From NCBI GenBank assembly GCA_905236245.1, contig CAJOPC010000026.1:1-45094 (forward strand): a stretch of DNA of 45,094 nt. Direction: 5' to 3'. This DNA comes from an uncultured Alphaproteobacteria bacterium (GTDB lineage Bacteria > Pseudomonadota > Alphaproteobacteria > CAAHEQ01 > UBA3637). Shown here piece by piece: positions 433-3,396 of this stretch (its first letter is position 1; every line of letters starts with the position of its first letter). The position numbers and the translations under genes are program-made. The notes beneath the pieces were generated by a model that was not told where the DNA came from, searched no databases, and saw only the letters and a program-made list of their open reading frames with translations.

Positions 433-458
433 CCTCGCCTCCTCCTGGCGAGGGTTTT
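433..458 (+). terminator. rho-independent terminator
   Basis: A perfect 7-bp stem CCTCGCC (433-439) / GGCGAGG (447-453) with a 7-nt loop is followed by G then TTTT. It isolates the pilin-like gene from whatever is upstream. Confidence 0.8.
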
Positions 459-472
459 ATTTAAAAAAATCA

Positions 473-501
473 TTGACATGACAAAATATTTTTGGTAGAA
501 T
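473..501 (+). promoter_or_regulatory. sigma70 promoter of the pilin-like Cys-rich gene
   Basis: TTGACA (473-478), a 17-bp spacer and TAGAAT (496-501) form a near-consensus promoter. An AGGAGGG ribosome binding site lies at 528-534, 3 nt before ATG 538. Confidence 0.75.
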
Positions 502-537
502 GGGTACACTATTATATGTTTTTAAATAGGAGGGCCC

Positions 538-3396
538 ATGAAACAAAATAGAAAAAATGAATCCGGCCGGAGCATGTTAGAAGTTATAGCTATCGTAGCT
601 ATTGTTTTCTTTTTGACAATAGGTGGCTTAGCTGGATATTCTTATTTAATTCAAAAATTCAAACGTAATGAATCAGCCGATCAGGTTGATCAACTTGTCT
701 TGAACGTCAAAACCTCTGGGGCAGCAAACAAAATAAATGGAGCAACAGTTATTTCTCCAAACACAGTTATTGCCGGTCCTAAAATGGACAAAGGCGAAAA
801 TAAAATCTTGTTGCCAGATAGTGGTGATGCTATTGTTTATGCATTAGAAGGGTCCGCCTTTAAGCTAGACGTTAACGTCCAAGAAGATACCTGTGAAGCT
901 TTATTAAAGTTTTTTGAAGAAGGTCATCCAGACGCCGTCGTATATATGGGTGATGGTTTATTGGCCAACAACGCCTCCATTAACGAAGAAGGCGTTTTAA
1001 GACTTCTTCGCACATTAGGAAAAGATGAAAAAGAAGAATTTTGTCTTAAAGTAAAAGGACTAAGAGCTGCTTCTTTCTTCTTTGAATGTCCAGGTGGTTC
1101 TTCCTCCTACTATTACTACTATGATAACGAATGCCATATTTGTCCTCAAGACAGACCAGACTTAGATGTCGCAGGCAATTGTTGTAAATTTGCCGATCAC
1201 CCAGAATATTGCGGTGGCCGTTGTTCTGCATGTGCAGATGGCACAACATGTAGCAGCTCACATCCAGAAGATACTTCTGGCCGTTGTGTTGGTTGTTTAA
1301 AAGACTACGAGTGTATCGATAAAATGGGTTGGGCCGGTCACGTTTGCTGGAACCATGAATGTATGGAATGCACCAGTGATAGCCATTGCGTAAATAAATA
1401 TCAATATACAGACAAAGAGGGAGACAAGAAAGAAATCAGTAATCCTCATCCTGGTTATAATACTTGTTTCAGCGGTAAATGCGGCTGCAAGCGCGATAAG
1501 GACTGCTATGACGCAACAACAGGGACAGGAAACCCTTCTACTCCTATCTGTAACCAAGGAACACATACATGCACCGAATGTCCAAACGGAGTAGATGAAA
1601 ACGGCAATTGTATCCAATGTCCTTCAGGCACAATCCTTCATGATGGAGAATGTGTTGCTTGTTACGATCCAGGAGATGGTAGCAAACCACACAGAGGTTG
1701 TACAAATGACAAACCAATTTGTAATTCCTTACAAAAAACAACTATTGATGGAACAGAATATGCCGGAAAATGCGTTGAGTGTATCGTCGACAGTGATTGT
1801 CCTGCCAAAACAGACGGCGATAAATGGTGCGATGCCGATCACGCATGTCACTATTGTCCTCAAACATCTAGTGCCGCCGATCAATATAAGCTGTATCGAG
1901 ACAAAAAGGATGATTCATGTCATGCCTGTATAGATAACAAGGCTGGTGCCGGACACGATACTGGTTGTCCTTTACCAACTGATGAATCCGACCACTACTT
2001 ATGTGGAGGAACAGGATCAAATGGATCTGGGGCATATGCCGATGCTTGCTTTAAGTGCTATGACAACAATACAGACAGCACAAAGGATGATGGTTGTTCC
2101 AGCGGAAAGCCTTTATGTGAAGCAACAAGCGAAAAATTTGGTAATACTTGTCACGTGTGTAAAGGCTCTGCCGCAGGTGCAGGAACAGATTTAGGTTGTT
2201 CCTCCAGCTTGCCAATTTGTGCAGATGCTGACAAAAAGCCTGTTTCTTCCGGCACATATGGAACAATGTGTGGTAAATGTATCAATGACAGCGAAAGCGA
2301 CCAAGATACTGGTTGTACAAAATCCGCACCAAATTGTAATGGTGCATGGCAAAATGGAGTGGGGACGACCTGTTCCACCTGCCCAAGTGGTCAAGTAACC
2401 TGTTCAAAATCTTCGACCGGCTGTGCTGTTTGCTGTGATGATGAAAAAGGATTAACTATGGATCCTGGTTGTTCTGCGCAAAAAGCTATGTGCTCTGATG
2501 CCGCAGGCAGCACAAAATATCAAACCGGTGGATCACATGAACCTGGCACGGTTTGTTATGAATGTTTCAAAAACGATGATTGCAAAGATGAATCCAAGCC
2601 TTTATGTGGCAGCAATCATCTATGCACACAATGTCCTGATGCAACACCTGTTTGGGATCCTAGCTCGAAACAGTGTGTTACATGTAGAGATACGGCAAAG
2701 GGAGTAAGTAAGGATAGCGGATGCTCCTCCAGCAAAAAGCTTTGTGGCGCCGGCGAGAATACAGGCAACGGCAAAGCAGGAAGCTATTGCGGTATCTGTA
2801 TCGACGATGTCACCGGAAACGGAAAAGATACGGGTTGCACAGCGAATGCACATATTTGTGTGAAAGATGACTGCGGAGACTCAAGAGGATCTAACGGTGC
2901 CCGCAAATGTTGGCATAACCATGCTAGCAAAGAGGTGGGAACACGTTGTGTTGAATGTATTTTTGACAGCAACTGTCCTCAAGAAAAACCTCACTGCAAT
3001 CAAACCTCTTTCACATGTGAAAGTTGTGATAAAAACCATTATTGGGATGGAAAACAATGTAAATCTTGTTCAAGTTCCGGCACATCCTCTGGCGGAACAG
3101 TTTACTTGTGCCCCGGCCATTGTATCAGAACAAATTCCGACAACGATGCCAACGGCAGATTGTATGGATACGTGAAAAATGCATCCGGATCCGTTCGTTA
3201 CAGATGGCATAACATGGTTTGCGCTTGGAATACCTGCAAATGGGATGACTTCTTCTGCCCAGATGATGCAGTTACAACAGAATATAGGTTGACCAGAACC
3301 GGCGGCAGTGGTTGGTGGGTCCTAATGAGCAAGCCAAGCAAATCTTCTAGAGATAGATATAGATGTAATGGCAATGGTGGCTGCTCACCAAAATAA
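538..3396 (+). CDS. giant cysteine-rich protein with type IV pilin-like N-terminus
   Basis: This is a 952-aa protein. The N-terminus carries a class III (prepilin peptidase) signal: Gly10 is followed by R-S-M-L-E, so Glu falls at mature position +5. A hydrophobic helix (about residues 14-38) and charged FKRNESADQ follow, as in pilins and pseudopilins. Residues about 40-180 form a pilin-sized, mostly Cys-poor head. About 185-860 is very Cys-rich, with 8 units carrying a D-x-GC-(S/T)-x3-P/x-x-C core (for example DDGCSSGKPLC, DLGCSSSLPIC, DTGCTKSAPNC) mixed with SDC/NDDC-type boxes. The last 90 residues form a distinct W- and C-containing domain. A strong own promoter and terminator make it monocistronic. 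Expected location is the inner membrane/periplasm or a pilus tip or surface. The function is unknown and no pilus assembly genes lie in the window. Confidence 0.8.
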   Translation: MKQNRKNESGRSMLEVIAIVAIVFFLTIGGLAGYSYLIQKFKRNESADQVDQLVLNVKTSGAANKINGATVISPNTVIAGPKMDKGENKILLPDSGDAIVYALEGSAFKLDVNVQEDTCEALLKFFEEGHPDAVVYMGDGLLANNASINEEGVLRLLRTLGKDEKEEFCLKVKGLRAASFFFECPGGSSSYYYYYDNECHICPQDRPDLDVAGNCCKFADHPEYCGGRCSACADGTTCSSSHPEDTSGRCVGCLKDYECIDKMGWAGHVCWNHECMECTSDSHCVNKYQYTDKEGDKKEISNPHPGYNTCFSGKCGCKRDKDCYDATTGTGNPSTPICNQGTHTCTECPNGVDENGNCIQCPSGTILHDGECVACYDPGDGSKPHRGCTNDKPICNSLQKTTIDGTEYAGKCVECIVDSDCPAKTDGDKWCDADHACHYCPQTSSAADQYKLYRDKKDDSCHACIDNKAGAGHDTGCPLPTDESDHYLCGGTGSNGSGAYADACFKCYDNNTDSTKDDGCSSGKPLCEATSEKFGNTCHVCKGSAAGAGTDLGCSSSLPICADADKKPVSSGTYGTMCGKCINDSESDQDTGCTKSAPNCNGAWQNGVGTTCSTCPSGQVTCSKSSTGCAVCCDDEKGLTMDPGCSAQKAMCSDAAGSTKYQTGGSHEPGTVCYECFKNDDCKDESKPLCGSNHLCTQCPDATPVWDPSSKQCVTCRDTAKGVSKDSGCSSSKKLCGAGENTGNGKAGSYCGICIDDVTGNGKDTGCTANAHICVKDDCGDSRGSNGARKCWHNHASKEVGTRCVECIFDSNCPQEKPHCNQTSFTCESCDKNHYWDGKQCKSCSSSGTSSGGTVYLCPGHCIRTNSDNDANGRLYGYVKNASGSVRYRWHNMVCAWNTCKWDDFFCPDDAVTTEYRLTRTGGSGWWVLMSKPSKSSRDRYRCNGNGGCSPK

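Follow-up and report, generated by a model that had tools for sequence, protein, structure and literature searches.

The window analyzed here, the whole stretch of 45,094 nucleotides, comes from an uncultured, gut-type alphaproteobacterium and carries near its start a gene whose product opens like a type IV pilin and continues as a very long, Cys-rich protein. Is this protein displayed by a pilus, and if so, for what role? We consider it rather likely, from sequence comparisons, that it is a modular type IVb minor pilin showing a disulfide-rich stalk and an exchangeable tip, which is probably an adhesin. The source genome is small (1.12 Mb in 55 contigs, 85% complete). Of the four named relatives, three are MAGs that come from goat abomasum or yak rumen.

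The gene and its prepilin N-terminus

The ORF is a real gene, and its features are collected in Table 1. The candidate promoter upstream of it matches 11 of the 12 consensus positions, with a TG extension, and lies directly after a terminator-like hairpin; about one weaker promoter-like match would be expected by chance in the stretch scanned.

Table 1. Features of the prepilin gene and its upstream region (positions in the window)
Feature	Position	Strand	Basis or remark
Terminator-like hairpin 5' of the gene	433..453	+	Consensus match only
Sigma-70-like promoter, TTGACA-17-TAGAAT with TG extension	473..501	+	Consensus match only
Ribosome-binding site, AGGAGG	528..533	+	Sequence reading
Whole modular prepilin gene	538..3396	+	Single ORF, ATG start, 952 aa
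Class III leader peptide, residues 1-10, last residue Gly10	538..567	+	Sequence; Gly -1, Arg +1 and Glu +5 invariant in 19 aligned heads
Pilin alpha-1 helix, residues 11-49	568..684	+	AlphaFold2 helix 10-49, low overall confidence
Pilin-like globular head, residues 50-183	685..1086	+	Head profile aligned to TcpA
Near-identical tract common to this gene and the contig C1 paralog, head-stalk junction	1074..1246	+	Gene-conversion-like
Cys-rich stalk, residues 184-840	1087..3057	+	Sequence, comparison with relatives
Array of seven D-x-GC motifs, residues 474-767	1957..2838	+	Motif count; stalk matches elsewhere
C-terminal tip module, residues 841-952	3058..3393	+	Absent from paralog; on another prepilin in a relative

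The first-pass annotation had proposed a type IV pilin-like N-terminus with a prepilin peptidase site at Gly10/RSMLE, and the sequence supports this: Gly at -1, Glu at +5 and the hydrophobic helix that follows, which together make up the class III signal of type IV prepilins, are all seen in the translation. Arg at +1 is atypical for a prepilin. Among the 61 plausible heads in the fetched loci (a head scan listed 63, of which two were removed as non-prepilins), the +1 residue was Arg in 60 and His in one.

No pilin or domain match above cut-off was obtained with the window protein in Pfam and NCBIfam. A profile of 17 heads, built without bridging sequences, had the type IVb pilin TcpA as its top PDB match (E=6e-4), and TcpA was the sole pilin match that extended through the F-x-(I/L)-x-V ... 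C-x2-L motif of the head, which sits around Cys119. With two bridging sequences included, the TcpA match reached E=2.7e-5. These bridging relatives, which a search with the window head retrieved, match both Bundlin and PilS (up to 8e-16); PilS is also matched above cut-off by another prepilin encoded in the source genome. A profile restricted to the six closest heads, those of the D-x-GC proteins, matched pilins only in the N-terminal helix, and it is therefore through the wider family that the globular head can be placed. These matches point to a relationship between type IVb pilins and the wider head family.

Structure prediction was of low confidence throughout. AlphaFold2, run with five sequences, gave pLDDT 44.4 for residues 1-206, with a helix at 10-49, strands at 98-103 and 107-113 and a helix at 118-127, an arrangement that is compatible with a pilin and proves nothing; the best Foldseek match in the pilin-fold check of residues 11-185 was a non-pilin and not significant (E=0.055). 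The model of the whole protein had pLDDT 32.8 and contained no confident rod.

The stalk, the paralog and the end module

The size first noted for the protein, about six pilins, is correct, and so is a Cys-rich ectodomain of about 770 residues: 89 of the 92 Cys lie within about 767 residues. The count of eight D-x-GC repeats has to be lowered, as the exact motif occurs seven times (at residues 474, 517, 551, 590, 642, 726 and 764). This is above chance, since 5000 shuffles of the ectodomain gave a mean of 0.97 and a maximum of six, and relatives have conserved the motif as well. The D-x-GC stalk, at E <= 1e-15, matches only prepilin-headed proteins of the genus.

The same genome encodes a paralog of 990 residues on contig C1, whose head is 65% identical to that of the window protein. 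Gene order indicates that this C1 copy sits at the ancestral locus, which is the same in three relatives, with a rubrerythrin gene following. The window copy is found upstream of tig, whereas cstA directly precedes tig in the three genomes whose trigger factors are closest (78% identity; CstA was confirmed by Pfam in one of them, and the sequence is similar in the other two). The site of the window copy is hence probably a derived one. Prepilin-like genes also occur near the trigger factor gene in two other genomes of the genus (L089:3-1691 and L090:475-1062), which may be chance, given how numerous such genes are. About 3 kb from the C1 paralog is a gene for a DsbA-like thioredoxin protein (L007:6289-7119), a possible helper in disulfide formation. 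Contig C1 also carries, on its minus strand, a Cys-rich ORF cut by the contig end (L007:16420-17652); its C-terminal region looks C-type-lectin-like by eye, and its visible part gave no Pfam match and no prepilin head.

Identity between the paralogs is uneven along their length. Over the first 840 residues it is mostly 50-70%, with some poorer stretches, and beyond that point it falls to about 17%. At residues 163-242, third codon positions of shared residues are 85% identical, compared to mostly 40-70% elsewhere in the pair, which suggests gene conversion at the head-stalk junction; constraint on a short stretch is the alternative. The end module, for which a PDB search returned nothing, has a counterpart, 43% identical, on a prepilin of about 730 residues in relative G010, where head and stalk are different. 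The window protein has the architecture of a modular pilin, with a Cys-rich stalk and a C-terminal module after the pilin module. At L096:2911-6196, the gene that precedes the G010 prepilin has a weak TraG P-loop match; it looks VirB4-like by eye and possibly reflects a type IV secretion context.

Two further candidate features were considered and rejected. No reverse transcriptase (PF00078) of a diversity-generating retroelement was found in the genome (85% complete), and a vWA-like MIDAS pattern (DYSxS, T, SDG), noticed by eye in the conserved end region of two Cys-rich prepilins of relatives (L060:3983-6856 and L061:3582-6422), was not confirmed by Pfam or by a PDB profile search.

The end modules bear on what the N-terminus might be for. 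If a pilus machine used it and the head served only to drive export through the secretin, the protein would be a secreted or surface Cys-rich coat, as the very long, Cys-rich members of the family might suggest. Moreover, type IVb systems can export non-pilins, and TcpF is reported to interact with a minor pilin for its secretion (PMC9565799). We nevertheless judge a coat to be unlikely, as a head and stalk that stay conserved while the C-terminal modules are exchanged are more in keeping with a displayed binding end.

Pilus machinery and the distribution of heads

It had been noted that no pilus machinery is nearby, which holds for the window but not for the genome, where a prepilin peptidase is encoded on contig C34 and a type IVb cluster on contig C12. 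The genome check for a peptidase that the first-pass annotation had proposed thus found one, the single Peptidase_A24 protein of the genome, with both catalytic Asp motifs (TDFCCMLLPD and GGGD). This protein of 227 residues (L021:2167-2850) matches Peptidase_A24 only, with no match to a methyltransferase domain. The C12 cluster encodes a prepilin (GRSMVEML), TcpQ, a secretin, PilO, a T2SSE ATPase and a T2SSF platform protein, as well as a protein that occupies the PilP position but has no pilus-family match; the clustering of TcpQ, secretin, PilO, ATPase and platform protein identifies a type IVb pilus system. Matches to T2SSF above cut-off were confined to this cluster, and the genome search revealed no second assembly platform. 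The type IVb pilus region also contains a gene for a TrbC/VirB2-type pilin (L020:8298-8726, contig C12, minus strand). Two further T2SSE proteins are encoded on contigs C5 and C21, and the one on C21 adjoins a TrbI/beta-flower protein, a neighborhood that we take to resemble a Dot/Icm-type arrangement. The genome has six prepilins of this head class, the two giants and four of ordinary size.

The head is found throughout the family. The window head had matches in all 34 sampled family genomes (its own included), from 5 to at least 58 per genome, 58 being the matches scored in a genome with more candidates. PilO was detected in 30 of these genomes, one copy each (the four without a match are 63, 80, 98 and 98% complete), and the prepilin peptidase once each in 32 of the 34. 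Outside the family, the head was found in 2 of 24 genomes, both of which have PilO, compared to PilO in 1 of the 22 others; the chance of this overlap is 3/276, or about 0.01. A plasmid collection gave no match to the window head. Complete ORFs of the head class were either ordinary (123-218 aa) or long (303-1328 aa), and those above 450 aa had 7.8-13.9% Cys; the fetched loci were picked by match score and frame length, such that the proportions are no census.

These distributions speak to the possibility that the N-terminus is an uncleaved signal anchor, a prepilin lookalike in an inner membrane protein whose Cys-rich part is periplasmic. The unusual Arg at +1 in nearly all heads would agree with such an anchor, as would the peptidase without a methyltransferase domain match. 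However, a plain anchor would need neither the Gly at -1 nor the Glu at +5 found in 19 of 19 aligned heads, and the head co-occurs with PilO; we regard an anchor as improbable. Very improbable is a type II secretion pseudopilin that anchors a surface rod, as first suggested, for although pseudopilins carry the same kind of signal and some relatives gave weak, below-cut-off matches to pseudopilin models, the cluster has TcpQ and PilO, as is typical for type IVb pili, no other platform was found in the genome, the head profile favors TcpA and no confident rod was predicted.

The favored reading and comparison with known systems

We return to the modular type IVb minor pilin as our preferred reading. 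The modular prepilin identity is well supported; the prepilin signature, the link of the wider head family to type IVb pilins, the machinery in the genome, the duplication and the recurrence of the end module elsewhere are all read from sequence, and we infer from them cleavage, pilus display, tip position, disulfide pairing and adhesion. Specifically, the C34 peptidase would cut after Gly10, and the processed protein would, with its alpha-1 helix and pilin-like head (about residues 11-183), enter or cap the filament of the single C12 type IVb machine. The head would then present a disulfide-bonded stalk of about 650 residues, which would hold the terminal module (about 110 residues) at a distance from the cell, for binding to a surface or a partner cell. 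Recombination would exchange tip modules between prepilins, such that specificity changes while anchor and machine stay constant. The tip-adhesin idea of the first reading gains support from the sequence, and of the possible roles we consider adhesion at the tip of the pilus the most likely. Several points count against this explanation: the structure models have low confidence and Foldseek was uninformative, the profile of the six D-x-GC heads extends over no more than the pilin helix, the window protein has no Pfam pilin match, 952 residues is very large for a pilin subunit, and the Arg at +1 is unusual.

We also propose, tentatively and with less than even confidence, that in this small-genome alphaproteobacterial family one type IVb machine displays a large, recombining prepilin-headed repertoire, including giant Cys-rich stalked proteins with swappable tip modules, as the main means of recognizing hosts or partner cells. 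If this is true, pilus-displayed proteins can far exceed known modular pilins in size and Cys content, escape the usual pilin motif searches, and have expanded in such a family. Moreover, with a constant head and stalk and exchanged ends, the specificity of these uncultured bacteria could be tested through single end modules.

Our literature search found nothing relevant on pilins of this lineage, which is weak evidence of absence. Among known proteins, TcpA, the major pilin of the toxin-coregulated pilus (PDB 8uhf), is alike in that the head profile aligns with it from the helix through the F-x-I ... C-x2-L motif, but it is a major pilin of ordinary, small size with neither stalk nor tip module. 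CofB and TcpB resemble the window protein in being large type IVb minor pilins, although no sequence match of the window family to either was found and, to our knowledge, neither has a Cys-rich stalk. CofB has extra domains after its pilin module and is predicted to be at the pilus tip (PMC8179133).

Closer in organization is PilV of IncI-type plasmids such as TP114, a minor type IVb pilin with a constant N-terminal part and exchangeable C-terminal adhesin ends; its cassettes are inverted by a shufflon recombinase (PMC9045228), whereas the window family consists of dispersed chromosomal copies with a much longer and Cys-rich stalk. In a small-genome episymbiont of the Saccharibacteria, a thin type IV pilus contributes to host binding (PMC12206443). 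The modular pilins, more than 1,200 proteins in 264 architectures that include PilB and PilC of Streptococcus sanguinis, share with the window protein a pilin module with a class III signal joined to a large extra module, as well as presumed tip display and adhesion (PMC8179133). They were gathered through the IPR012902 motif, whereas the window protein has no N_methyl Pfam match, and their extreme case has 860 residues (PMC8179133), compared to 952 in the window protein and up to 1328 in its relatives. The window protein differs from them further in its type IVb-like head, its Cys-rich stalk and its lack of any recognized domain, and belongs to a lineage-wide set that extends the known modular pilins.
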